Part shown: positions 4,099 to 19,561 of the stretch, piece after piece | Layout of the letters: every line of letters begins with the position of its first letter | Position numbering within the stretch: position 1 is the stretch's first letter | Origin: Spirochaetota bacterium | GTDB taxonomy: Bacteria > Spirochaetota > JAGLSM01 | Assembly (NCBI GenBank): GCA_023135745.1 | Contig: JAGLSM010000001.1 | Location: 1-19,588 of the forward strand | DNA length: 19,588 nucleotides | Reading direction: 5' to 3' | The notes under the pieces: generated by a model | Told to the model about the DNA's origin: nothing | The model's database searches: none | What the model saw: the letters and a program-made list of their open reading frames with translations, nothing else | Translations under genes and position numbers: made by a program

Positions 4099-5391
4099 TC
4101 ACTTCCACATTTTTTCGTATTTCATTCCTTCATAAAAGAAAGTGCCTCTGTCTTCTACAATAGCCAGATTGTCAAAGCCCAGCAGCATGGTTTTTATTCT
4201 GTAATTCTTTTTTGGTTTAATTATGAATTCAAGTAATTGAAGGCCCTTATCATCAGTTATATACTTTGTTTTTTGTATTACCCAATATGGTATGGTGACG
4301 TAGATTTTACGCCATCCGGTGAAGTTAATATCTCCGAATTTCAGCATATAGTACTGCTTTTTCATGTTTCGTACAATAAGGTATACCGACTCCCCTCTTC
4401 CGCCGCCTTTTATTGAAAGAATGATTTTACGGCATATTGCTGTCCGGATATATTTTCTAAACCTGAGTATGAAATGGTTTGATCCCGATTTATTAAGATC
4501 AGCTTTTATTTGAAGGTAATCTGTGGAAAATTTTTGTTTTAAAGCAGGATTATACTGTTTGAGACTGATGGTTTTATTGGTAAAACCGACAAATCTGTAC
4601 CGGAAGAGTTTGAATGTATCGGCATTAAAATCGAGGAGTTTTTTATAGGTCCAGAATTCCCAGTAGTTTTTCAGGTTGCGTTTTATACGGCTTACTGCCA
4701 GGTTTGTAAGATGATAAAGTGATTTTCTGCGTCTTCCTGCTATGTTGTCGAGTATGATGATTTTAACGAGCCATAGTTTTTGATAGCGGAATGAAAATGG
4801 TTTTGATAACATTTGCCGCTGGGGTATGGCTTTTGAAAGCCTGTACCAGCCGGAAAATGTGCTTCTCCCAAAATCAAGGGTGTAGTGTTTTCCTGATGCA
4901 TCTTTGTAGACCATCTTGAACAGCATGGGTTTTCCTGCTCCGTGAGCCCAGAATTCCAGACTTTCGGACCAGAGAGGAAGTAGTATTGGTTTTTTAAAAA
5001 TGATATGCACTGCGTTAAGCGCCTTTCTTTTAAATGAAAAAGAAAAACGTGTGATGAATTTAATGTTCGGAAAGGCAACGCTGATTTGTCCTTCCGGTTT
5101 TATTTGTCTGACAGACGAGTATTTAGGCTGATAAAACGAAGTGCCTTTTATGTAAAAGTCGCTGCTGAACCTGGAGAGTATTTTATACTGGGTGTCAGAG
5201 TCATGAATCGATTTAAATTCAGCAGGTTTGTTAATGATTCGTATTTTTGGAGTATTCTTGTAAATATTGTAATACAGTATCCCGAATGCGGCTGAAGTTA
5301 ATAAGATTTGAAAAAACAGCATGGAAAACAGAGCTTTTAAGGTTAATTTGATGCGGCGTATACTCATTTGTAATTCTTCAGGGATGCTCAT
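4099..5391 (-). CDS. Membrane-anchored protein with two FlaA-like (spirochaete flagellar sheath) domains
   Basis: A 430-residue protein with one N-terminal hydrophobic helix (about 16-40), then two copies of the fold found in spirochaete flagellar filament outer-layer protein FlaA. The first copy (about 130-235) has LEFWAHGAG...LDFGRSTFSGWYRL. The second (about 322-415) has LSIKGGG...LKFGDINFTGWRKIYVTIP, a Q-x-K segment and FDNLAIVED, close to the FlaA pattern of fG-x-NF-GW-k-x-IP ending in a FDdL strand. FlaA normally coats periplasmic flagella. Here there is no typical cleavable signal and no flagellar gene nearby, so a flagellar role is only inference; a periplasmic, sugar-binding-like fold is an alternative. 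AGGG seven bases before the ATG supports the start; Met9 is a weaker alternative. It is the last gene of the ABC-exporter cluster, 85 bases after the lipoprotein gene. Confidence 0.72.
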   Translation of the reverse strand: MSIPEELQMSIRRIKLTLKALFSMLFFQILLTSAAFGILYYNIYKNTPKIRIINKPAEFKSIHDSDTQYKILSRFSSDFYIKGTSFYQPKYSSVRQIKPEGQISVAFPNIKFITRFSFSFKRKALNAVHIIFKKPILLPLWSESLEFWAHGAGKPMLFKMVYKDASGKHYTLDFGRSTFSGWYRLSKAIPQRQMLSKPFSFRYQKLWLVKIIILDNIAGRRRKSLYHLTNLAVSRIKRNLKNYWEFWTYKKLLDFNADTFKLFRYRFVGFTNKTISLKQYNPALKQKFSTDYLQIKADLNKSGSNHFILRFRKYIRTAICRKIILSIKGGGRGESVYLIVRNMKKQYYMLKFGDINFTGWRKIYVTIPYWVIQKTKYITDDKGLQLLEFIIKPKKNYRIKTMLLGFDNLAIVEDRGTFFYEGMKYEKMWK

Positions 5392-5476
5392 TGATATTCC
5401 CTTGGATATTTTTTAATTCCATCTTTGATTTTCAATTTTTTCCCGTCAGGTTTTAAATATTAAACACAATAGATGG

Positions 5477-7243
5477 TTAATTTCTATACTTTACCTTTTT
5501 ATAGAGATACCTTGCAATTCCCGCAAGTATCAGCATCGCGAAAAATGAAGTTAAAAACAGCAGAACCAGGTCATAACTTGAAGCTTCCCCTGAAAAAGGA
5601 TCGTAGTTAGTTATCGGTTTGTTCAGAATAAGAGAAAAGCGTATTGCATGTTTTGTGTTCTTGTAGAAATAACATAAGGAAATGCGGTTAACAATATTAA
5701 TCAGCTGTGTGAATGGACTTATATTTTGTCTTGTAATATTGTCGAATGAGCTTGCTATATTTTTGTAGAGTTTATTTACGGATAATGATGCATAATATTT
5801 AACGGGATAAGGTTTCAAGACGCTGTAAACGTGCTGTCCTGATGTATAATAGAGACTCCTGCCCTTTGTTTTCTCATAATCAAGAACGCTTGACAGCCTT
5901 GGCGAAATCAATATGTATTCTTTATAGGGCTTAAAAAACAGAAAACCCGGAATACCGCAGCGTATCAGTGAAAAGGTATAATAGGTATTCTTTGGCAATC
6001 TTACTCTTTTAAAAGGTATTCTAAAACGTGAGAGATGTTTATAAATGTGGTTTAATATACTTGCAGCGTAATCCTTTGATTTCATTTCGAGAAGGACAAG
6101 CCCTTTTATACTTTCAAAAAAGTTTATTTTATGAGATAAAAGTGAAAAGTTAGAAAGCTTATCTATTTTGAGCGCGATTCTCCCGGTCATACCGGAAATA
6201 ACTTCTTTTTCAATTTCAAGTCCGTCAAGCATTCTTTCAAAAATGGATTTTTTTCCGCCCAAAAGAGTGGACAGCAGTCCGCCGATTTTGCCCAGGTTCC
6301 TGTTTGCCTGTTTGAGAATCCGTGGTTTTATTTCATTTTTCCAGAGATCCGCAAAGTTTAAAGACATTACAAATGATAACAGTCCCGGTTTTCCTGCGAA
6401 TTCTGACAGCCCTTTTCCGGAATATGACCTGATATATTTATAGGGGTTTATTTTTTGTTTTGAGAGTAATTTAAATATAAAAGAAGCCAGCGGGTCGTGT
6501 AGAACCTTTGATGTTAAAGTAATATCTATCCGTGATTTTAAAATGTTAATCGATGATTCAACAGGATAAGTAATTCGTGGAATAAAAGGAAGATTAATTA
6601 GCGTTTTTGAATCTTTGTTTAACCACAAGTTTAATAAAGAGGCTTTTTTACCGGAAGATGCGATCCATTTTTTAAATCCTTCAGACAGCTTTTTTTTACT
6701 GCTGATTATTCCCGACAGAATAAAGACCCTTTTTTTGGTTATGAGTACTCTTGTTATTTTTGTATTAATCTTCTGTTTTAAGCTCTTTTTATTGTTCTTA
6801 GCGCTGTCAGGCTTAATGATCTGCAGTATTGATTCAGGGAATTGTTTAAAAAATTGTTCTGCCTTTAAAGAGGATTTAACCGGTATCGATAAGTACAATC
6901 CGTTTTTAAATACCGCCGCTAATACAGGTTTTTTTATTGAAAAACCGTATTCTGATAGTTTTTCCGCGTTGAGAAGATCGATCTTTAATTGGTTTTTGAT
7001 GTTTCCAAAAAGTTTATTTTTGATTCCTGACGCGTCGCTTTTTGAAAAAAAAGATGCCAAAACAGAAAAAGAGTTTTTTATAAATTTTTCGTATGAATGA
7101 GTGATAATTGCTGCTGCCGGTTGATGGTCAAGAAAAGCGTAATCATATGAATCTGTAAGCAGTTTTTCATCTGAACTACAGCCGGACAGCAATAAGACAA
7201 GGATCAATAAAAAGGATAAAAACAAACTCCGTATAATCTTCAT
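5477..7243 (-). CDS. Large lipoprotein with a C-terminal membrane helix, unknown function
   Basis: A 588-residue protein with a lipoprotein signal (LLLSGC, lipidated Cys22) and, unusually, a C-terminal transmembrane helix (about 558-578) followed by the basic tail RYLYKKVKYRN. The body would therefore lie in the periplasm, fixed at both ends. It has no enzyme motif I recognise. Its alternation of hydrophobic strands and Lys-rich loops, and a GLEIEKEVISGMTGRIALKI segment, faintly recall DUF3352-type periplasmic proteins; this is a weak impression. It starts one base after the ABC permease stop, and its ribosome-binding site (AAGGAAG) lies inside the last permease codons, so translation is probably coupled. 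That makes it a likely accessory or substrate partner of the exporter. Confidence 0.75.
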   Translation of the reverse strand: MKIIRSLFLSFLLILVLLLSGCSSDEKLLTDSYDYAFLDHQPAAAIITHSYEKFIKNSFSVLASFFSKSDASGIKNKLFGNIKNQLKIDLLNAEKLSEYGFSIKKPVLAAVFKNGLYLSIPVKSSLKAEQFFKQFPESILQIIKPDSAKNNKKSLKQKINTKITRVLITKKRVFILSGIISSKKKLSEGFKKWIASSGKKASLLNLWLNKDSKTLINLPFIPRITYPVESSINILKSRIDITLTSKVLHDPLASFIFKLLSKQKINPYKYIRSYSGKGLSEFAGKPGLLSFVMSLNFADLWKNEIKPRILKQANRNLGKIGGLLSTLLGGKKSIFERMLDGLEIEKEVISGMTGRIALKIDKLSNFSLLSHKINFFESIKGLVLLEMKSKDYAASILNHIYKHLSRFRIPFKRVRLPKNTYYTFSLIRCGIPGFLFFKPYKEYILISPRLSSVLDYEKTKGRSLYYTSGQHVYSVLKPYPVKYYASLSVNKLYKNIASSFDNITRQNISPFTQLINIVNRISLCYFYKNTKHAIRFSLILNKPITNYDPFSGEASSYDLVLLFLTSFFAMLILAGIARYLYKKVKYRN

Positions 7244-7244
7244 T

Positions 7245-8546
7245 TTACTTCCTTACCGCTTTGGAAATATCGATTCTTGAGGCAATAAGGGCCGGAAAAT
7301 ACGCGGCAAGTATTGAAGTTATAACCGAGCCTGCGAGAAGGACAAACGGCAGAAAAAATGATATGGGAAAAAGGACATCCAGAGACGGAAAAACCGGCGG
7401 CAGAACATCCTTGACAAGAGACCATGTCAGGCGTACCAGAAAGATACCAAGCGTGATACCCATAAGTCCTGAGACAGTGCCGCCGATTGAGGCTTCTGAT
7501 AAAAACAGAGCGGATATATACCGTCTTGAAGCTCCGAAGGACCGGAACAAGCCGATCTCCATTCTGCGCTGACTGACAATAACCGTAAAGGCGTTAAATA
7601 TACTGACAGCAGCGATGAATATTATTATCAGCGAAAATAAGCCTAGCAGGAAGGTTACAAGAAGAATCAGGTTGCTTATTTTTTTATGAGCATGGACGGT
7701 GTAACCGTTTTTTTCAATTGTATCTGAAATTTTAGAAACCTTGTCGGAACTGCGGGCCAGGACATAGCAGCTTGAATACCGCGGTTTTTTAAAGCCTGCA
7801 ATGAATCTCTTATTGTAGATTTTGACATAATCAAGAGGCATTACAAGTCCCAGCATTTCGGACTTTGTTGTAAATCCTACTACCCTGCACGGGACTCTGA
7901 TTCCCTTTTTACCGCGTTCTCTCAAGAGTGTTGATTGTCCCAGGATGAGGTTGAATCTTAAGCCTAGAAGCGCTTTTTCTGATAGTTTCGGCAGGTTCTG
8001 GGCGGAAGCAAATCCGGAGTTGTAGATATCAAGAATATGACGTGAAATAAGTACAGGTATCGGCCAGGATTTGCGGCTGAAAGAAACATTTTTTAATCTT
8101 ATATCGTTTTTAATCAGGGTTTCCGGCGCTCCTGACATTATCAAATCGGTTCTATATCCCCTTCTGTAACGTGCGCCCGGAAGTATGGAAGAAAATGATA
8201 TAACAGCGGAAATCGGAAACATGACATTCATTATCGGGTAAACTTTTCGTACTCCCGGGATAGCTTTGAATGAGTCAATTGCTTCCTCAGAGATAGTTGC
8301 CGATTTCATAAAGGAAGGCTGACCAAATCTGAAAATGCCCAGGGAAAGTTCTGTAGTCCTGACACGAAGCATGTTGACCGGAAGCTTCTGCATTGTCTTG
8401 CTGGTGATCAGACTGTTTAATCCGGTACCTACTGTAATAAAAAAATAAAGGGATCCTATTCCTATTACAATTCCTATGCTCGCAAAGAAATTCCTGAAAA
8501 AGTTCCGTTTAAGATTTGTTAAAAGTATAATTAAAAAATTTTTCAT
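7245..8546 (-). CDS. ABC transporter permease, FtsX/MacB/LolC family
   Basis: A 433-residue permease with the family layout: one N-terminal helix (about 20-40), a periplasmic domain of about 240 residues, then three C-terminal helices. The conserved cytoplasmic motif QRRMEIGLFRSFGASRRYI follows the second helix, and the protein ends AAYFPALIASRIDISKAVRK, both typical of FtsX-like permeases. MacB/LolCDE-type transporters work as mechanotransmitters that extract or push lipoproteins, toxins or peptides from the periplasmic side rather than moving solutes through a channel. The ATPase gene lies 51 bases upstream, and the downstream lipoprotein gene begins one base after this stop. Only one permease is present, so a homodimer (MacB/LolF style) is likely. 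Upstream ribosome-binding signal is weak. Confidence 0.93.
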   Translation of the reverse strand: MKNFLIILLTNLKRNFFRNFFASIGIVIGIGSLYFFITVGTGLNSLITSKTMQKLPVNMLRVRTTELSLGIFRFGQPSFMKSATISEEAIDSFKAIPGVRKVYPIMNVMFPISAVISFSSILPGARYRRGYRTDLIMSGAPETLIKNDIRLKNVSFSRKSWPIPVLISRHILDIYNSGFASAQNLPKLSEKALLGLRFNLILGQSTLLRERGKKGIRVPCRVVGFTTKSEMLGLVMPLDYVKIYNKRFIAGFKKPRYSSCYVLARSSDKVSKISDTIEKNGYTVHAHKKISNLILLVTFLLGLFSLIIIFIAAVSIFNAFTVIVSQRRMEIGLFRSFGASRRYISALFLSEASIGGTVSGLMGITLGIFLVRLTWSLVKDVLPPVFPSLDVLFPISFFLPFVLLAGSVITSILAAYFPALIASRIDISKAVRK

Positions 8547-8597
8547 GTTATTTTATGATCATCTTTTCCGACTGCCCAAATTACGGCACAGTGGATT

Positions 8598-9278
8598 TTA
8601 TCCTTTTTTTGTTTTCTTTTTTTTGAGTTTTCCCAATGAAAGAACAAGATTTTCATCGGCAGTATCGATAAAACGCTGGTCATGACTGACTGTAAGAATA
8701 GTCATTCCCTTCGTATTTAGTGATTTAAAAAGTTTGATTATACCAAGGCCTGTTTTAGAGTCAAGATTTCCCGTTGGTTCATCAGCCATGAGTATTTTCG
8801 GATTTTTTATGACAGCTCTAGCGATTGCAACACGCTGCATTTGTCCGCCGGAAAGGTTGAACGGATATTCGTTTATTTTTTCAGGTATTCCCACTATTTC
8901 CAGAATATCTTTGACTTTTTTTTCGGCATTTTTTAATCCATGTTTTTCAAAGAGAAGCGGCGCCCTGATATTTTCAAAAACAGTGAGCTGAGGGATAAGG
9001 CTGAATGACTGGTAGACAAAACCAATGTTTCCCCCTCGAAACCTTGAAGCTTTTTTATCTGATAAACGGTGAATATCCATATCTTCAAAAATGACGTTTC
9101 CGTTGGTTGGGTGGAGAAATCCTCCGAGAATGTTCAATAATGTTGTTTTTCCCGATCCGGATAAACCCGAAATGCAGGTAAAATTTCCGGGTTTTATTAT
9201 AAAGGAAAGGTTATCCAGTGCATAAAAAGGATTGCCGGCGAGAAAGAATTTTTTTGATAAATTTTCTACCTGTATCAT
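8598..9278 (-). CDS. ABC transporter ATPase, LolD/MacB family
   Basis: The 226-residue ATPase that drives the adjoining permease. All motifs are intact (numbered from the ATG): Walker A GLSGSGKT (38-45), Q-loop YQSF (Q90), signature LSGGQMQR, Walker B ILMADEP, D-loop, and H199 in VSHD. The MIQVENLSKKF start, GNIGFVYQSFSLIPQLTVFENI and DEPTGNLDSKTG are typical of the LolD/MacB/FtsE group. The ATG at 9278 gives the normal N-terminus; a TTG at 9284 is possible but adds nothing. No Shine-Dalgarno sequence precedes the ATG, and the predicted promoter places the transcript start at or within a few bases of it, so the mRNA may be leaderless. A 27-bp palindrome over the promoter suggests repression. 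The KKKKTKKG tail is unusually basic. Confidence 0.95.
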   Translation of the reverse strand: MIQVENLSKKFFLAGNPFYALDNLSFIIKPGNFTCISGLSGSGKTTLLNILGGFLHPTNGNVIFEDMDIHRLSDKKASRFRGGNIGFVYQSFSLIPQLTVFENIRAPLLFEKHGLKNAEKKVKDILEIVGIPEKINEYPFNLSGGQMQRVAIARAVIKNPKILMADEPTGNLDSKTGLGIIKLFKSLNTKGMTILTVSHDQRFIDTADENLVLSLGKLKKKKTKKG

Positions 9279-9284
9279 GATCAA

Positions 9285-9431: not shown

Positions 9432-10520
9432 TTATTTCTTAACAGCACGAATAAGCAAAGGCCCTGATATTGATTTATGATAATCTAAAAAAAACACTAT
9501 ATTAAGCTTACCGTCAGGATCTATTCGTATCCGCAAATTTGACTTAAAACTGAGCTTTTCAATACAGAGTTTTTCTTTATACCACTGACCACCCGTTTTC
9601 CACGCGTGCCATAATTCCTGTACTCCTAATCCCGCCATACCTTCATCACTGCTAAAATATACAATATGGACTGTCCCATTACTTGATACTGTAATGTCCG
9701 GTTTATGCGCATAATTACCTGTGTCAGGAATGGTTTCTTGAATCCAAGATGCGTTGCTTTTATGAAAATATTGTATACCATTATTCAGGTAAATAATATG
9801 TGGACTATTTGATGAGTCAAGAACAAGAGCATTATGCTCTCCACTACCACCTGATATTGAATCATAAATAAAATTGCCATTACTTATAACTTTGTACATT
9901 ACTGTTTGATTAATTAAATGCATTATGTTGTTACTACTAATATTAATTTTAGAAAAGCTATATTCATTATTTGATATAACAACTAAATTACTAACTACTG
10001 AAAACAGTGATGCAGAAAATTCATTTACTATATAAGGCACTCCATTAGTGTCTATTGCGATATCATTATTTCCACCTCCTGCGCTAGAAGCAATAGTGGT
10101 TACAAGAAGCTGATCATTACTAATTGTTGCATACTGCAATCTCACCAAGTTATAACATGCCGCAATATGAGGCGTATTGCTAGAATCAAGAATAATAGAA
10201 GCATACGGCCCTAAAGCTCCGGACCATAAACTCCACTCCTTTTCTTCACCACTGCTTTTAATTCTTTTATAAAGAGATCCATCAAACTCAGTATTGCCCC
10301 CGGAAAAATAGTAAAGAAAGTGGAGACTGTTGTCTGTTCCAATGGCAAAATCAGCAAATCCACTTCCATGGGCTATAGTGGTAAACTCCCAATCCTGACT
10401 GTACCAAGGAGTATAGTCATCAGCAGGCTTACTACAATCACCTGCTGTGAGGATTAGAATGAATAGAAACATTATTATGCTTCTTTTAAGTAATCCGATG
10501 TTTTTTTGAGCTGTTTTCAT
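9432..10520 (-). CDS. Exported beta-propeller-like repeat protein, paralogue of the next upstream gene
   Basis: A 362-residue protein with a basic N-terminus and hydrophobic segment ending LTAGDC. Cys29 may be lipidated, but Asp at -1 is a poor lipobox, so anchoring is uncertain. The mature part holds about six repeats of roughly 50 residues, each with a motif like D-s-n-x-pHi-Y: DSSNTPHIAACY, DTNGVPYIVNEF, DSSNSPHIIYL, SSNGTVHIVYF and DPDGKLNIVFF. Such repeats usually form a bladed beta-propeller of sialidase or WD-like shape. No catalytic residues are recognisable. It aligns along its length with the upstream neighbour (WY-x2-WEFT near the start, LWHAWK and WxKEK near the end), so the pair arose by tandem duplication. 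GGAGG six bases before the ATG sets the start, and it has its own promoter. Confidence 0.8.
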   Translation of the reverse strand: MKTAQKNIGLLKRSIIMFLFILILTAGDCSKPADDYTPWYSQDWEFTTIAHGSGFADFAIGTDNSLHFLYYFSGGNTEFDGSLYKRIKSSGEEKEWSLWSGALGPYASIILDSSNTPHIAACYNLVRLQYATISNDQLLVTTIASSAGGGNNDIAIDTNGVPYIVNEFSASLFSVVSNLVVISNNEYSFSKINISSNNIMHLINQTVMYKVISNGNFIYDSISGGSGEHNALVLDSSNSPHIIYLNNGIQYFHKSNASWIQETIPDTGNYAHKPDITVSSNGTVHIVYFSSDEGMAGLGVQELWHAWKTGGQWYKEKLCIEKLSFKSNLRIRIDPDGKLNIVFFLDYHKSISGPLLIRAVKK

Positions 10521-10684: not shown

Positions 10685-11719
10685 TTATTTCTTCTGAGTA
10701 ATCACCAGAGATGAGCCATTTTCTGATTGGCTTTGAGTAAGAAAAACAACATATAATTTACCATCAGGAGCAAAAAGAATAGAAACATTGGCTATTGTAT
10801 TGAGCTTTTCAGTACATATTTTTTCCTTTTGCCAGATACCATTATCCTTCCAGGCATGCCATAGATTCTGAAGATCATCTGTGCTACCGATTGGTCCATC
10901 TATATAAACTATATGTACTTTCTTATCAGGGGATATTACTATATCAAGCTGTCTGGTATTTATACCTGTATCCGGCACTTTTTCCATTTGCCAGTTTATA
11001 TAATCTTCTACATGACAGTATTGTATTCCCTGGTTGAGATACAGGATATGGATTTTATTTGTTGAATCAACGATGAAACTGTTAATAAGACCGCTGCTAG
11101 GTGTTTCAGTAGGAAAGAAGGCTCCATATTCAAAAAGAATAATATATTGACCGTCCGGAGTAAGTAAATGTTGATTATTATCATTATCAAAAATTATTTT
11201 ATATCCATTAAATACAAATTCAGGGGAATTATAAATATCAATTGATACGTCAGAATATCCATTTGTAATTGAAGAAATTATTAATGATTCCTCAAGAGTA
11301 TTACTATTTAAAGTTAATTCAACTATATTATTTGGAGCTGTGTGATAGGCAATATGGGGTTCATTATTGGTATCAAGAGCAATTGAAGGATATGGTACAA
11401 AATTATATGGAGCAGTATAGCTCCATTCGTTAGTTGAGTTATCTGGATTTATCCTTCTGTAAATCAGGTTGCTGCTTATACCACTATTATTTACCTTATA
11501 ATATACAAAATGAAATCCCCCATCTGAGTCAATAGTAACATCCCCATAGTGACTGGCTTGATGGATCTGAGTAAATTCCCACGCTGGATTATACCATAAT
11601 ACAGCAGGTTTATCTTCTTCACCTCCACAATTGATTAAGATAAAGAAAAGTGCAATCATTATGCTAATGGATTTAATTGAGAAGAATTTAGATTTTTTTA
11701 ATCTTTTCTTATTCATCAT
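10685..11719 (-). CDS. Beta-propeller-like repeat lipoprotein, paralogue of the next downstream gene
   Basis: A 344-residue protein starting MMNKKRLKK, with a hydrophobic segment ending FILINC; Asn at -1 before Cys fits the relaxed spirochaete lipobox. The frame stays open upstream, but AAAGGA seven bases before the ATG at 11719, the promoter just ahead of it and the signal peptide fix this start. The mature region has the same roughly 50-residue repeats as its neighbour: DSDGGFHFVYY, DTNNEPHIAYH, DSTNKIHILYL, SPDKKVHIVYI and APDGKLYVVFL, consistent with a beta-propeller at the cell surface or in the periplasm. No catalytic motif is seen. The two genes are 164 bases apart, in tandem, and have separate, closely similar promoters. 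Confidence 0.82.
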   Translation of the reverse strand: MMNKKRLKKSKFFSIKSISIMIALFFILINCGGEEDKPAVLWYNPAWEFTQIHQASHYGDVTIDSDGGFHFVYYKVNNSGISSNLIYRRINPDNSTNEWSYTAPYNFVPYPSIALDTNNEPHIAYHTAPNNIVELTLNSNTLEESLIISSITNGYSDVSIDIYNSPEFVFNGYKIIFDNDNNQHLLTPDGQYIILFEYGAFFPTETPSSGLINSFIVDSTNKIHILYLNQGIQYCHVEDYINWQMEKVPDTGINTRQLDIVISPDKKVHIVYIDGPIGSTDDLQNLWHAWKDNGIWQKEKICTEKLNTIANVSILFAPDGKLYVVFLTQSQSENGSSLVITQKK

Positions 11720-11753
11720 AGTATTATCCTTTATTTTTATCTGCCTATTTTTT

Positions 11754-11781
11754 AGTATATTGCAAAATGATGGAATTTCAA
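11754..11781 (-). promoter_or_regulatory. Predicted promoter of the upstream propeller lipoprotein gene
   Basis: TTGAAA (11776-11781) and TATACT (11754-11759) with a 16-base spacer, followed by a leader of about 28 bases carrying AAAGGA. Box sequences are identical to those of the paralogue's promoter. The remaining intergenic DNA up to 11903 contains a GC-richer patch (about 11822-11857) of unknown meaning. Confidence 0.5.
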
Positions 11782-11903
11782 CTGTTAAATTTGTTTGCTT
11801 TTTTATATAGGATACTTTAGCGAACAAAATCGATGCTTCCCCGACGGCTTGCACAACCTAATTTATGCTATATGACTTTATAAACATTTTAAGAAGGTTA
11901 AAT

Positions 11904-13677: not shown

Positions 13678-13745
13678 GGGCTTCGACACTTCAATAGGCT
13701 CAGTGCACCGCAGGCTCAACATGGGCTTCGACAAGCTCAGCCAAT
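13678..13745 (+). repeat. Two copies of the CTTCGAC...GCTCAG repeat family at the toxin gene's 3' end
   Basis: GGGCTTCGACACTTCAATAG, continuing GCTCAG (13678-13703), and GGGCTTCGACAAGCTCAG (13723-13740) are variants of the short palindromic repeat found further right. The second copy supplies the TGA stop of the RelE-type toxin gene. Confidence 0.65.
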
Positions 13746-14024
13746 GAGGTAGTTATAGCTTTTTTTGACTTGTTTATAAATATTTTTTCTATGTCCTATC
13801 GTAAGTACGATTACCAGGATTTCTTTTTTATTGATTTCGTAAATTATTCTATAGTTTCCCGATCGAAAAGAGAATAAACCTGTAAGTTCATGGGTAAGTG
13901 CTTTGCCTTTTGCCGGTTCTTGTGCAATTTTTAGAATGTCATCTTTTATTTGTTCTTTAATCTGTGATGTTAGTTTGTTTATTGCTTTTTTTGCTTCTTT
14001 TGAAAACAGGATTTTATAGATCAA
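13737..14024 (-). CDS. RelE/ParE-family toxin
   Basis: A 95-residue RelE-superfamily toxin. Members of the RelE branch cut mRNA on the ribosome; ParE members poison gyrase. Family features are the YKILFSKEAKKAINKL start, the helical middle, the LTGLFSFRSGNYRIIYEI strand with its conserved Arg, and VIVLTIGHRKNIY near the end, a RelE-like pattern. Translation begins at TTG (14024), overlapping the antitoxin stop in TTGA; an in-frame TGA nine bases upstream leaves no other good start. GGATGAAG at the end of the antitoxin gene serves as ribosome-binding site. The last residues (SYNYLIG) and the stop lie at or inside a copy of the local repeat, so the natural 3' end may have been replaced. Without a structure, RelE versus ParE activity is unresolved. 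Confidence 0.9.
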   Translation of the reverse strand: MIYKILFSKEAKKAINKLTSQIKEQIKDDILKIAQEPAKGKALTHELTGLFSFRSGNYRIIYEINKKEILVIVLTIGHRKNIYKQVKKSYNYLIG

Positions 14025-14263
14025 AAGACTTCATCCATTGAATAAAGCTCTTTTTTAGCAATGTTTGACTTTGCCCTGGATATTGACTGAAGTAATTCTC
14101 TGTCGGCCATTATTTCAAGTGTTTCAAACTCTTCAGGACTCATCATTATTGCTTCAGGGGAACCATTTTTAGTAATGATTAAATGTTTTTGAGCTCCGGA
14201 TAGCTTCTTTATTAAAGAAGGTAACTTGCTTCTCACTTCTGATACGGGCATTATATAATCCAT
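14021..14263 (-). CDS. Phd/YefM-family antitoxin
   Basis: An 80-residue antitoxin that should bind and neutralise the RelE-type toxin and repress its own promoter. The N-terminal part is the Phd/YefM DNA-binding fold: MPVSEVRSKLPSLIKKL, then HLIITKNGSPEAIMMSPEEFETLE, the family signature (kNG-p-Avlvs-ee-e-l). The C-terminal tail (SRAKSNIAKKELYSMDEVF) is the usual toxin-wrapping segment. GAGGAG six bases before the ATG is a strong ribosome-binding site. The stop overlaps the toxin's TTG start by four bases, which couples translation and keeps antitoxin in excess. Two TGTACA boxes upstream match the operator type bound by YefM-YoeB in E. coli. Confidence 0.93.
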   Translation of the reverse strand: MDYIMPVSEVRSKLPSLIKKLSGAQKHLIITKNGSPEAIMMSPEEFETLEIMADRELLQSISRAKSNIAKKELYSMDEVF

Positions 14264-14914: not shown

Positions 14915-17134
14915 TCAATACCCCAAAATCATTTGAACCCGTATCCGATGTTCCACGGGAAGAGTGTTCAATTTTATCCGGCCGTATTTCAACCCGAATT
15001 TTATAAGATTTCCTGAACTTTCAGCTAGAAAAAAAAAGGAAGTACCTGATCTGTAATAGCTTAGAATTCCTTCATGCCAAAGATAGAGTCTTGTATCATA
15101 GGCATAGACAGGAAGTGATGAGTTTTCAACGTTGAATAAATGTCCGCCAAAGGATAGTCTCAAGGAATTGTGTCTTATATTAATTCTCAGACTCAGGATT
15201 TCATTTTTTATAGAAGTTTCTGTGAACTTTTCTTTTGTATGAGCATAATTCAGGATAAGGTCGTTTTTTTTAAAAAATTTAATAATGCATCCGAATTTCT
15301 TTTTTATATTATTTGCCGGTAATGAAATATTTTCTTTTTCAAAGTAATTAATAAAATCAATTTTCTTTTTTATAGACGCCTTAAATGAAATAAAATTGAA
15401 AGGCTTAAAAATAAATTCAGCCTTGTAATTCTTTTCCAGCCTGGGGAGTTCATGGTAGTAACTTCTCCATATTTCACTAAGAATTTCCACGCCGGCTTTA
15501 ATATAAAAAGTTCCCTTAAAAAATTTATTAAATCCGATTGTCAATCCTCTTCGCCCGGGTTTATAATTATCCGATGAAATGCCGTGTGGAGATATAAATT
15601 CCGGTTCAATGCAGTGATAAGAAAGAGTTAGAGAGATCGATTTAAATCCAAAGTTGATTCCGAATATTCCTGCTTTTCCTAAGACTATTGATTGATTATC
15701 TGAAGAATAATAAGCTTTTCTTTTATAGCTGCAGAGAGCGGCTTCTCCGAAAATACTCATGCTTTTTAAAATAATATGAAAATCAAAACCGGACTGAAAA
15801 AGTTTCTGACCTCTGAAAGAGTAATAACTATCCCTCTTTAACGGAGGAAGAATTTCTTTTTGATATGAATAATTTACCAGACGAAGTGAAACCTTAAAAT
15901 TTTCAAGTAAAATACCGGAGATATCGAGTCCTAAAGCAGTCTCTCTCAAGGAATCTCTGTTTTTATCATTGCAGGATTCTGTATGAACCGGATCGGATGA
16001 AATGATGCTCCGTAACTTGCCGGTTATAATCCCGTTATCAGTTGAAGCATCAAATGAATTCCTCGAAAAAAATGAAGTAATACATGCTGCGCCGTTTGTA
16101 TATGAAACAGCAATTCCTTCAAAAAGATTATTTTTAGTTGTGCCTGCTTTTGGGCGTATACCTTCCCTCTCATGTTTGCTCCCGGTTAGTTTCAAACCGG
16201 ATGAGCCGAAACCTGAATCGAATATAAGACCTTCCCCGAAGTTTAAAGAGAAGTTCCCAACTACCAAAAGCCGGATAAAGTCTATGTTTCTTATCTGAAG
16301 ATTGTAAACAGCTGAATCGAAAACCTTAAACCCTTCTGATCCGAACCAGCTGCCCGGTATACTTCCTTTTTCAAGAATTGATTTTGCAAGACAACCATTA
16401 AATCGAATTGACTTATTTATTTCAAGCATGATTTTAGTAAAAAGATAAGGTGATGTTTCCGTATCTATATCTGATGAGTGTTTAGTATAGTAACGGCTGG
16501 AAATCGATCCCTTGAAGCCGTGAACCGCAGGAGATGTTTTTTTGCCTTCTTTTTTATTTACTGTTATTAATGGTCTAATGCAGTAATAGAGTTCAGGGAT
16601 TATGCTGCGGATTTTTAGTATCTGCCATGCTTTAGTGAATGGACCATTAATCTTTCTATCACGTATTATGGCGGAAGCCGCTGATTGGCTTAAGAAAGGG
16701 ATTTTTAACAGATCGAACAGTGAGGCTGTATTGATATTTACCGGGTTATTGATAAAAAAATGGATATGATCCAGAAAGTTTCCAAGTTCGTTATTTTCAT
16801 TATTCCAGTTCCCTATTCGGTTTAAAATATCTTTAATAGAAAAAGAAGGAGTTTTGGAATAAAAGTATTTTATAAGGATTGTTTTTACTTTTTTTTTAAG
16901 ACCTCTTATGTAATTGATCTGCCGGATATTTTCGAAACCTCCGATCCGCTTCCTGTAGTTCATAAGAATAACACCCTGTTGTTCAGGCCAGCCCATAAGC
17001 CGGCATAGTTTATAAATAGACTTTGAGGTAACAGTATTTATATCGAATTTGTTTTGTGTATGATTCGTGGTTTTTCCATAAACCGGTAAATAAATCAAGA
17101 ATGTCAGTGAAAAAAAAAGGATAATGAATTTCAT
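14915..17134 (-). CDS. Outer-membrane beta-barrel protein with two N-terminal helix-hairpin-helix domains
   Basis: A 739-residue protein with a signal peptide (cleavage near VYG-KT, residue 20). Two ComEA-like HhH units follow, about 30-92 (FDINTVTSKSIYKL, MNYRKRIGGFENIRQI) and 131-191 (VNINTASLFDLLKIPFL, IIRDRKINGPFTKAWQIL). The rest, about 205-739, alternates amphipathic strands and loops (NFGEGLIFDSGFGSSGLKL, LRLSFGGHLF) and ends in aromatic Tyr, as outer-membrane barrels do. HhH domains bind DNA backbones without sequence specificity, so the domain would face the periplasm near a large pore. I recall similar HhH-barrel proteins in Bacteroidota, without known function. Its ATG overlaps the previous stop by one base (TAATG), so it is translationally coupled to the small HhH barrel gene. 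Confidence 0.8.
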   Translation of the reverse strand: MKFIILFFSLTFLIYLPVYGKTTNHTQNKFDINTVTSKSIYKLCRLMGWPEQQGVILMNYRKRIGGFENIRQINYIRGLKKKVKTILIKYFYSKTPSFSIKDILNRIGNWNNENNELGNFLDHIHFFINNPVNINTASLFDLLKIPFLSQSAASAIIRDRKINGPFTKAWQILKIRSIIPELYYCIRPLITVNKKEGKKTSPAVHGFKGSISSRYYTKHSSDIDTETSPYLFTKIMLEINKSIRFNGCLAKSILEKGSIPGSWFGSEGFKVFDSAVYNLQIRNIDFIRLLVVGNFSLNFGEGLIFDSGFGSSGLKLTGSKHEREGIRPKAGTTKNNLFEGIAVSYTNGAACITSFFSRNSFDASTDNGIITGKLRSIISSDPVHTESCNDKNRDSLRETALGLDISGILLENFKVSLRLVNYSYQKEILPPLKRDSYYSFRGQKLFQSGFDFHIILKSMSIFGEAALCSYKRKAYYSSDNQSIVLGKAGIFGINFGFKSISLTLSYHCIEPEFISPHGISSDNYKPGRRGLTIGFNKFFKGTFYIKAGVEILSEIWRSYYHELPRLEKNYKAEFIFKPFNFISFKASIKKKIDFINYFEKENISLPANNIKKKFGCIIKFFKKNDLILNYAHTKEKFTETSIKNEILSLRINIRHNSLRLSFGGHLFNVENSSLPVYAYDTRLYLWHEGILSYYRSGTSFFFLAESSGNLIKFGLKYGRIKLNTLPVEHRIRVQMILGY

Positions 17135-18486
17135 TACTTCTTCAACTGCTTTTTATTTTGACTTAATGTTGTGAAGAAAATTTTCTTAATAATACCGATT
17201 GATTTTTTATCGATTCCCGGAACATGATTCAGATCTTCATGTTTTTTAAAGATGCCTCCGGCTTTAAGGAACAGGACAATGTTTCTTGCGGTAAGAGGAG
17301 AAATACCTATTTTAACCAGCTGTCTCATTGTAATTGAATTAAGGCTGCGGGCAGATTTATTGATATTTTTAAATGGTAAAAACCGTGAACCGTTTTCATC
17401 AACTGCGATGTACTTCATTATCCTTCGATATTTGCTATATGCGATTCCTCTTACACGACAGATTTCCCTAATATGCCGGAATTGGTTTCTAAAACGTCTA
17501 TAGGAAATTATTCTGTCGGCAAGGGTTTTACTGATACCGCGGAGTTTCAGAAGGGTTTTGCAGTCAGCCCTGTTTATGTTGATCTTTCCGTTGGATGAAT
17601 ATCCGGAATGTGCCGGTATTTTTGAATCAGCAGGATTATTTAATGTTTTTAATCGGAAGTTAAGGGAAATGAAATGTGTTGAACCAAGATCATCAAGAGA
17701 ATTTTTAAATCCGTAGTCTATTTGATAATTCTTAAATTCTATTCCGAAACCCAGAGTGAAAAAATTCGGATTGTCTGAAAAACCGCAGCGGACAAAAAAG
17801 CCTTTATGGATTTTATAATCAAAACCCATTCTAAAGGAAGTCTCGTTGAAATCCCGGATTTTAAAAAACAGGTCTAATTCTGTTGAGATTTTCCATTTCA
17901 ATTCAAGATTAAGTTTCTCTTCAAGTTTATCCTTCTCATAATAACCGAACTGAGGCGAACCGATGTTTTGCAGGATAAGTGAAATCAGAAAGTTTTTTCT
18001 GACAGATAATGCGGTAATCATATCTAATGAGAAACGATGTTCCTCTCCAATGTCGGACAGCAGCAGAGATTGTCTGTTTACAGTAAAACCCAGACACGCA
18101 AAATCAAAAAGCTTGAATAAAAATCCTGCTTTGATGTTCATTTCACGGTATAGATTAAAACCCGAACTATGGGCTTCAAGAATAAGGCTGAAGTATTTTA
18201 AGGTAAAATGAAGGTCAAAGGAATATACTTCCAGCCCTTCAATATTGTACAAACGGCTGCAGGTAAAACACATATTCAGTTCTCTCTGATTCTTCCCCGA
18301 TAACAATAGATTCGATGCTTTTGAAAATGCTGAAAGACTGCTGCCCATTGCTGATGATTTCGCGGATTCATTGTTAATAATAAAAAGGCCGTTAAGTCTG
18401 CTTGAATTAAGCTGAATTAGATATAGAACTAATAATAATTTTAATAGAATTTTCTTGATGGCTGTTTTTTGGAATTCCTTTTTCAT
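17134..18486 (-). CDS. Small outer-membrane barrel with two C-terminal helix-hairpin-helix domains
   Basis: A 450-residue protein with a basic N-terminus and hydrophobic signal (about 10-30). Residues about 35-281 look like a small beta-barrel; NNESAKSSAMGSSLSAFSKA recalls the N-terminus of PorV/FadL-like proteins. Two ComEA-like units follow at about 300-362 (KININRADCKTLLKLRGIS, LADRIISYRRFRNQF, VRGI) and 373-440 (INKSARSLNSITMRQLVKIGIS, GGIFKKHEDLNHVPGI). HhH pairs of this kind bind double-stranded DNA in ComEA during natural transformation. The tail is strongly basic. The ATG overlaps the stop of the lamin-tail gene in ATGA and its own stop overlaps the next ATG, so all three products are probably made together. 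Barrel first, HhH last is the reverse order of its neighbour. Confidence 0.82.
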   Translation of the reverse strand: MKKEFQKTAIKKILLKLLLVLYLIQLNSSRLNGLFIINNESAKSSAMGSSLSAFSKASNLLLSGKNQRELNMCFTCSRLYNIEGLEVYSFDLHFTLKYFSLILEAHSSGFNLYREMNIKAGFLFKLFDFACLGFTVNRQSLLLSDIGEEHRFSLDMITALSVRKNFLISLILQNIGSPQFGYYEKDKLEEKLNLELKWKISTELDLFFKIRDFNETSFRMGFDYKIHKGFFVRCGFSDNPNFFTLGFGIEFKNYQIDYGFKNSLDDLGSTHFISLNFRLKTLNNPADSKIPAHSGYSSNGKININRADCKTLLKLRGISKTLADRIISYRRFRNQFRHIREICRVRGIAYSKYRRIMKYIAVDENGSRFLPFKNINKSARSLNSITMRQLVKIGISPLTARNIVLFLKAGGIFKKHEDLNHVPGIDKKSIGIIKKIFFTTLSQNKKQLKK

Positions 18487-19561
18487 AATCTTGTTCCAAG
18501 GACAACAGCTTTAATCAGGTTCCTGCATTCACCGGAATATGGGCTTACTACAGTTAGTTTTATAAGATAAATCCCTGTTTTTAATATCTCATTATTTCGT
18601 CCCCTTCCATCCCAGACAACCCGTACTTTTCCGGTTGATTTTTTTTGAGAAATCAGAGTATTAACAAGACGTCCGCTGAGGTCGTAAATCTTAACTGAAT
18701 ATGCCGAGTCAGCCTGAAGAAAAAAAGCAATACCTATGTTTTCACCTTCCATGGGGAAAAAGCGTTTTTTTGAAATTTCAAAATTGATGTCTTTGGGTCT
18801 CTCAGGGAAGTATCCGGGGGAAGCTTTAATAGCGGGTATATTGAGCCAGTCTCTTGTTGTATCAGTATCAGTGAATGCACGGTTTTTTGAATATCTTCCG
18901 CCGATCTCATCGTTGTCAATATATACGAGAGGAAGAGTATCTGTAACAGGATTATAGTTTGTTAATGCCGTATCAATTGATGATGGAAAACCCGGAGAAA
19001 TCAGACCCCAGAGCTTCAGTTGAAGAACCTTGTTGAGTCTTTCTATATTCGCCGAAGAGACATCTCCCTTCCTTGAATAAATACATGCTGCATCGGCTGC
19101 TCCCGACAGGCTTTGGTCTATTGACCCCGGCGTTGAGGTAAGTACCAGGAATTCGAAATCATAACTCAGGCTTGGAGCGGTATCGCCGGAATAAAAATCC
19201 CAATAACCGTTGAACCCTCTTCCCTTGATTTCATTTTCAGAATCCGCCGCGGTCTTTACAGAGCCATCCGGATTAAGCGCCTTGAAATGTATAAGCGCGA
19301 ATTCACCGGGATTTAGTACGGCATCTTCGTTTATGAATGGACTATCGGTTCCTGTAAGGTCTGTAAGTCCCCAGCCTTTCAGGTTAATGCTGATGTTACG
19401 ATTATTGTATATTTGACCCAGGGGGCATTTTCGGGGCCTGCAGAGCCTTTTATAGAGAATTCCGTTATTATCATAGGGAAAAGACGAGCTGTTGCCATAA
19501 AGAGAAACAGCAGCAAAAACACGTAATAAATAAAATTATGCCTGTGAATTTTGATCGTCAT
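18483..19561 (-). pseudogene. Secreted lamin-tail-domain / FlgD-Ig protein, interrupted by an apparent -1 frameshift
   Basis: Frame one opens at the ATG at 19561 (MTIKIHRHNF, hydrophobic signal, then LFPMIITEFSIKGSAG, the typical first strand of a lamin tail domain) and stops at 19379. After Lys50 (codon at 19412-19414) the -1 frame continues without a stop to 18483: IYNNRNISINLKGWGLTD completes the lamin-tail motif, and the C-terminal domain (about 271-359: YSVKIYDLSGRLVNTL, VVWDGRGRNNEILKTGIYLIKL) is FlgD-Ig-like, often an anchoring or sorting module. One missing base near 19412-19415 explains everything; repaired length is 359 residues. The -1 frame has no ATG, GTG or TTG before 18752, so naive annotation would call only 89 residues. 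It may be a true mutation, a sequencing error or, less likely, programmed slippage: no classical slippery heptamer is present. It overlaps the next gene by four bases. Confidence 0.78.

Follow-up and report, generated by a model that had tools for sequence, protein, structure and literature searches.

The window analysed here is a stretch of 19,588 nucleotides from a Spirochaetota bacterium (GenBank assembly GCA_023135745.1, contig JAGLSM010000001.1). It is a complete contig (C1) of a 76%-complete genome of 2.39 Mb in 513 contigs. On its reverse strand lie three overlapping genes, named A, B and C below. A and B encode predicted outer-membrane barrels fused to helix-hairpin-helix (HhH) units, and C encodes a protein with a lamin-tail domain (LTD) and a FlgD-Ig domain. 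The barrel pair, a large pore with a FadL-type partner by prediction, spans Bacteroidota and many Spirochaetota. We put at about 45% the probability that A, B and C make up one translocon-like module of the outer membrane, with the HhH units used for docking or gating, and that the module is not mainly a DNA receptor of the ComEA type. A preliminary description, made from the letters alone, had proposed an outer-membrane device that captures, holds or passes DNA. The conserved gene set of barrels, putatively periplasmic HhH units and LTD/FlgD-Ig partner holds up; the role in DNA handling is not borne out.

Layout of the three genes

The features of the locus, all on the reverse strand, are as follows.

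14915..17134, reverse strand: gene A, HhH units and a large predicted barrel, 739 amino acids (open reading frame, HHH_3 matches, AlphaFold2 model)
16562..16747, reverse strand: second HHH_3 copy of A, the clearer one (E 3e-12; blocks of predicted local distance difference test score, pLDDT, of 77-89)
16886..17056, reverse strand: first HHH_3 copy of A, weak at E 7.6e-4 and under the cut-off, modelled with low pLDDT
17132..17136, reverse strand: TAATG, 1-base overlap of the B stop and A start
17134..18486, reverse strand: gene B, predicted FadL/PorV-type 14-strand barrel with two C-terminal (HhH)2 units, 450 amino acids
17197..17343, reverse strand: second HHH_3 copy of B (E 1.3e-7), carrying a net charge of +13
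17407..17592, reverse strand: first HHH_3 copy of B (E 6e-13), carrying a net charge of +13
18483..18486, reverse strand: ATGA, 4-base overlap of the C stop and B start
18483..19561, reverse strand: gene C, lamin-tail and FlgD-Ig, reading frame interrupted near 19,410-19,420 in this contig (intact in relative P0012)

Thus, the two overlaps are present as first described, as are two neighbouring HhH-barrel fusions of opposite domain order. The contig stops 27 bases beyond the start of C. A one-base shift separates the frame of the N-terminal piece of C from that of the remainder. In the open C-terminal piece, FlgD_ig scores above its Pfam cut-off and LTD is weak (E 0.0011). Conversely, the relative P0012 (358 amino acids, 97% identical) is uninterrupted. 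It matches FlgD_ig with 39.2 bits (cut-off 27) and LTD (PF00932) with 32.3 bits (cut-off 34.3); operon relatives in genomes G001, G004 and G013 score 38.6-42.4 for PF00932. Since P0012 is intact, the frame break is confined to this contig, through either mutation in the strain or faulty assembly. Hence, of the secreted lamin-tail/FlgD-Ig gene first described, both domains are matched, LTD below its cut-off in P0012, but the single open frame from 18483 to 19561 is not confirmed.

Both HhH proteins are predicted barrels

Protein A has a signal peptide (by eye), HhH units at residues ~26-92 and ~129-195, and a barrel at ~207-738. Its HHH_3 score is 59.9 bits (cut-off 27), with copies near residues 27-83 (weak, below cut-off) and at 130-190. 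Protein B scores 75.8 bits against the same cut-off, with HHH_3 at residues 299-360 and a second copy behind. The best match in each protein is far above chance, and at E ≤0.001 the 76%-complete genome has no HHH_3 match beyond these four copies.

Structure modelling agrees with the barrels first described for both proteins. The AlphaFold2 model of A (mean pLDDT 73.4) has about 24 strands by DSSP count, so that A is predicted to be a large barrel. The model of B is a 14-strand FadL fold with an N-terminal hatch, as in FadL/PorV barrels. In fold comparisons, which took in the barrels only, A was usher-pore-like along the whole barrel. For B, FadL proteins and a type 9 translocon chain outscored chains of the β-barrel assembly machinery (BAM). 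B scored 36.8 on the PorV/PorQ model NF033709, under the cut-off of 90, and gave no match to the BamG model at E up to 1. The barrel models would place all HhH units of A and B on the periplasmic side.

The gene set is conserved in Spirochaetota

Direct protein look-ups yielded few relatives (four for A, one being the window's own, seven for B and one for C). A search of 100 Spirochaetota genomes with A found matches in 16, including the window's own, part of them to the HhH alone. An alignment of 11 B proteins had some match in 75 of the 100 genomes, mostly to other HhH or PorV-like proteins, and 19 genomes encoded a full-length B (at least 346 of 443 positions). Eleven of these 19 proteins were rows of the query alignment, and the neighbourhoods of all 19 were inspected. 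Counts across genomes, here and below, are uncorrected for kinship. Separately, genomes G013, G025 and G035 each have 17 scored matches to the B alignment, mostly PorV-like barrels and some of them much longer open reading frames, which is a family expansion.

An LTD-family gene lies directly upstream of B, on the same strand, at 17 of the 19 loci. It was recognised by Pfam, in some cases below cut-off, in the window's genome (via P0012), G001, G002, G004 and G013. In 12 divergent genomes it was recognised by profile-profile comparison to LTD (97.6%, E 3e-12); a Pfam scan of eight of these genes gave one LTD match (E 0.023). The exceptions are G025, with a gene for FlgD_ig only, and G014, whose gene at this place is unrelated. 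Immediately downstream of B, 18 loci have an A-family barrel, in one case split by masked bases; at the remaining locus (G049) the contig ends. The downstream barrel of G002 matches profile A1, which is rich in Spirochaetota, with E 3e-21 and profile A6 with E 0.018. In ten distant genomes the downstream barrel, of 478-536 amino acids, is a relative of A (hhalign 98.7%, E 1.8e-16; B-family control 0.8%). Taken together, HhH-barrel and lamin-tail genes are co-located well beyond the window, a result in favour of the preliminary description.

The barrel pair extends to Bacteroidota

From a scan of named genomes for A we kept the best 80 of 155 relatives, namely 79 from Bacteroidota (one Balneola included) and one from G013. 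A small PorV-like gene of 264-339 amino acids lies directly upstream of A, on the same strand, at 68 of the 79 Bacteroidota loci. The two genes overlap in 36 of the 68 cases and are 0-30 bases apart in 28, leaving four others. Two of the 11 loci without the PorV-like gene start at a contig edge. The two PorV-like partners that were scanned with NF033709 scored 67.0 and 64.7, below the cut-off of 90. Thus, the barrel pair is part of the conserved neighbourhood in this phylum also. Among 148 Bacteroidota genomes drawn evenly, all gave some match to the A alignment and 111 encoded a strong A (E 1e-50 or better).

The HhH units change host between the two barrels

In Bacteroidota the HhH is on A. 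It was found in 77 of the 79 A proteins at the weak threshold of domain E up to 1, the other two being cut by a contig end, and in 55 of the 79 at whole-protein E <1e-3; the PorV-like partner carried none (0/68 at domain E up to 1). In distant spirochaetes the host is B: all 19 Spirochaetota B proteins carry HhH at domain E ≤1.3e-4 (four of them seeded that HhH model), and none of the ten distant A barrels does. In the window's wider group both proteins carry it, A in 9/9 proteins tested there or nearby, one weakly. This change of host is our strongest ground for inferring that the two barrels work jointly, and that a single function beneath the pore is common to their HhH units. This hint of a single A-B complex makes the complex testable.

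A proposed translocon-like module

These observations suggest the following arrangement. A would be a wide pore of about 24 strands, and B its partner barrel, of the FadL/PorV/BamG type. B would hold C, a surface protein rich in Ig domains, one of which is its tail. Suspended in the periplasm below the pore, the HhH units would provide a dock or gate to a periplasmic partner or to cargo. SprA-PorV and BamA-BamG offer the analogy: like them, the A-B pair may serve as translocon or assembly site, to pass or display a protein of the Ig type. Binding of A to B, the surface position of C, the direction of transport and the cargo are all parts of this proposal.

Several observations weigh against it. 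Confidence in the A model is moderate. AlgE, which matches part of the A barrel, scores slightly above the ushers (16.7); the usher likeness of A may therefore reflect merely a common arrangement. An adjoining B is absent at 9 of 77 untruncated Bacteroidota A loci, and an LTD match was found at only four of the 79, in scattered positions. Eight Spirochaetota genomes encode A-like barrels of ~500-620 amino acids (one open reading frame has 203) without a B neighbour, in similar gene contexts; two of these barrels were confirmed as A-like by profile.

A bolder form of the proposal is tentative, and we would not bet on it. A and B, with C in Spirochaetota, could be a hitherto unrecognised class of outer-membrane translocon in two phyla, beside SprA-PorV and BamA-BamG. 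Its members would pair a 24-strand pore with a FadL-type barrel, and either barrel could bear the HhH units as an entry clamp in the periplasm. Its cargo would be a macromolecule, either a folded Ig-type protein or, where the HhH of B is basic and near-canonical, duplex DNA. Our searches of open-licence literature listed no description of the A+B gene pair, and no paper on the combination of LTD, HhH and outer membrane.

Transport of a small or hydrophobic ligand is an unlikely explanation. Here, B would be an ordinary FadL-type channel, A a large specific porin and C a ligand-binding surface protein. This does not account for the retention of HhH on either partner, or for a pair so widespread in two phyla.

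HhH hairpins and DNA uptake

A DNA-uptake port is improbable. In such a port the LTD would capture DNA at the surface, A would be the DNA channel and the periplasmic HhH units would pull DNA in, much as ComEA does. HHH_3 is the ComEA domain, B reaches 54.7 bits on the comE model TIGR01259 (below the cut-off of 152.35), and a 24-strand pore could admit duplex DNA. Hairpins were compared using a small HhH model built on four ComEA and four B proteins. Strict GhG occurred in hairpin 1 of 10, and hairpin 2 of 11, of 12 distinct ComEA controls, four of which seeded the model. The equivalent counts were 0/64 and 1/64 for segments of Bacteroidota A (15 of the 79 proteins had no usable segment and were dropped) and 0/11 and 0/11 for Spirochaetota A. 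For the first unit of B they were 0/11 and 3/11, with hairpin 2 unaligned in four. Near-canonical hairpins (xIG with GIG or RIG) were present in four of the 11 B first units (G004, G013, G014 and G025), all of them model seeds. The hairpins of the window's own B are GIS and GIA. Hence, the ComEA-like geometry on which the DNA role had been staked is lacking in A and, in near-canonical form, is seen in only four of the 11 B proteins compared.

Median net charges of the HhH were +2 for ComEA, -3 for Bacteroidota A, +1 for Spirochaetota A and +5 for the first unit of B (six complete segments). In the window the B units carry +13 each and the A units +11 and +7, but six of eight other window proteins examined are basic as well. 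Weak Pfam matches of such HhH units to PsbU and T2SS-K indicate that HhH folds occur outside DNA binding. Judged by these sequence features, B may contact DNA in some lineages and A probably does not. The strong A of 111/148 Bacteroidota genomes is also broad for a part used in competence only. Labels of the type 'ComEA family' on such proteins do not demonstrate DNA uptake.

Competence genes add little in favour of a port. ComEC and DprA are each found in 98 of 100 relatives; being near-universal, they make the proposed co-occurrence check uninformative. Neither gene was noticed among the loci inspected. In the window's 76%-complete genome, ComEC is on a separate contig (C487), DprA was not found, and an HHH_3 scan found no separate ComEA. 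Among the matches listed, a separate ComEA (open reading frame of 130-200 amino acids) occurs in just 2 of the 19 genomes with full-length B, which a port would fit; the figure elsewhere is 11/81, so there is no association. G021 additionally has, among the matches listed, a 112-residue HHH_3 open reading frame. The eight genomes with A-like barrels but no B neighbour present a separate observation: six have a short ComEA of their own, in five of these on the ComEC contig.

The preliminary description also supposed that a classical type IV pilus was lacking. This is not borne out: contig C104 of the window's genome carries a PilM-like gene, small genes and a secretin gene in one cluster. Secretins occur in 15 of the 19 genomes with full-length B and 42 of the 81 others, a weak difference uncorrected for kinship.

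Transformation of Riemerella anatipestifer requires an HhH protein together with two proteins of the surface or outer membrane whose descriptions differ from A and B (PMC8459023). The screen names other outer-membrane genes, which counts against a DNA port. So do five A-bearing Bacteroidota genomes that were checked: each has one full-length A and other HhH open reading frames, always including one of 245-372 amino acids. A further HhH protein, noted in passing, is encoded at 5621-6847 of locus L146 (G035, contig C68); it has 408 amino acids, a metallo-beta-lactamase domain, a C-terminal HHH_3 and, by eye, secretion.

Candidate accessory roles in BAM or type 9 secretion

That B acts like BamG in the BAM complex, with A as a dedicated client or second pore, is very unlikely: BAM chains score lower for B than FadL proteins do, and lower than the type 9 translocon chain.

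Least likely of all is an accessory role in type 9 secretion, in which B would be paralogous to PorV and C would be secreted as cargo: the tail of C lies about at the cut-off of the sorting model TIGR04183 (24.5, cut-off 23), though under that of PF18962 (18.2, cut-off 27), and SprA-like matches are commoner in genomes with full-length B (14/19 versus 24/81, uncorrected for kinship), but no Spirochaetota genome among the 100 has a SprA match above cut-off, and no SprA match was found in the window's genome (76% complete) or in four others of the 19. In Bacteroidota, SprA is above cut-off in 117 of 148 genomes. A strong A is present in all 31 SprA-negative genomes, and 37 SprA-positive genomes are without one. 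Type 9 secretion therefore does not have A as a part of its own, and we rejected an accessory role for A. The SprA-like matches themselves, in 38 of 100 Spirochaetota genomes and many of them in open reading frames of ~1,900 amino acids, make type-9-like secretion in spirochaetes worth a look.

Other genes in the window

Adjoining small genes at 14021-14263 and 13737-14024 resemble, by eye, a Phd/YefM antitoxin and a RelE-type toxin. In the region 4099-9284, genes that by eye encode an ABC ATPase, an FtsX-like permease and a lipoprotein precede one whose product has two FlaA-like stretches (PF04620), a flagellar sheath-like domain in unusual company. Tandem secreted proteins at 9432-10520 and 10685-11854 look like paralogues by eye, and match no Pfam family above cut-off.

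Comparison with known systems

If the A-B pair is a translocon, a large outer-membrane machine is added to both phyla. The proposed module would most resemble systems that join a large barrel to a FadL-type partner. In type 9 secretion, SprA is the docking partner of PorV, which binds the tails of cargo (PMC10994853). A differs in having ~24 strands rather than 36, in being strong in SprA-free genomes, and in the additional HhH units. In the BamA-BamG-BamH assembly of Bacteroidota, BamG is docked to BamA and keeps BamH anchored at the surface (PMC12611786), so that a FadL-type barrel next to the core barrel retains a surface protein. Conversely, A has no Pfam match besides HhH, and B does not match the BamG model. 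The chaperone-usher pores PapC and FimD differ in family, A having no match to the usher family PF00577 at E up to 1; chaperone or pilin genes were not noticed near the A locus, where no family-based search was made.

ComEA shares with A and B the HHH_3 (HhH)2 domain and, by prediction, its periplasmic side. However, ComEA is a short membrane-anchored protein linked to comEC, whereas the HhH units of A and B are fused to barrels, with ComEC on another contig. The hairpins of A are without GhG, and TIGR01259 scores A at 27.5 and B at 54.7, against a cut-off of 152.35. RA0C_RS02645 of Riemerella anatipestifer is likewise an HhH protein of Bacteroidota and is essential for transformation (PMC8459023). 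Compared by description only, it differs from A and B in having its HhH at 236-301 and a predicted periplasmic location, with no barrel described in the available sections of that source.
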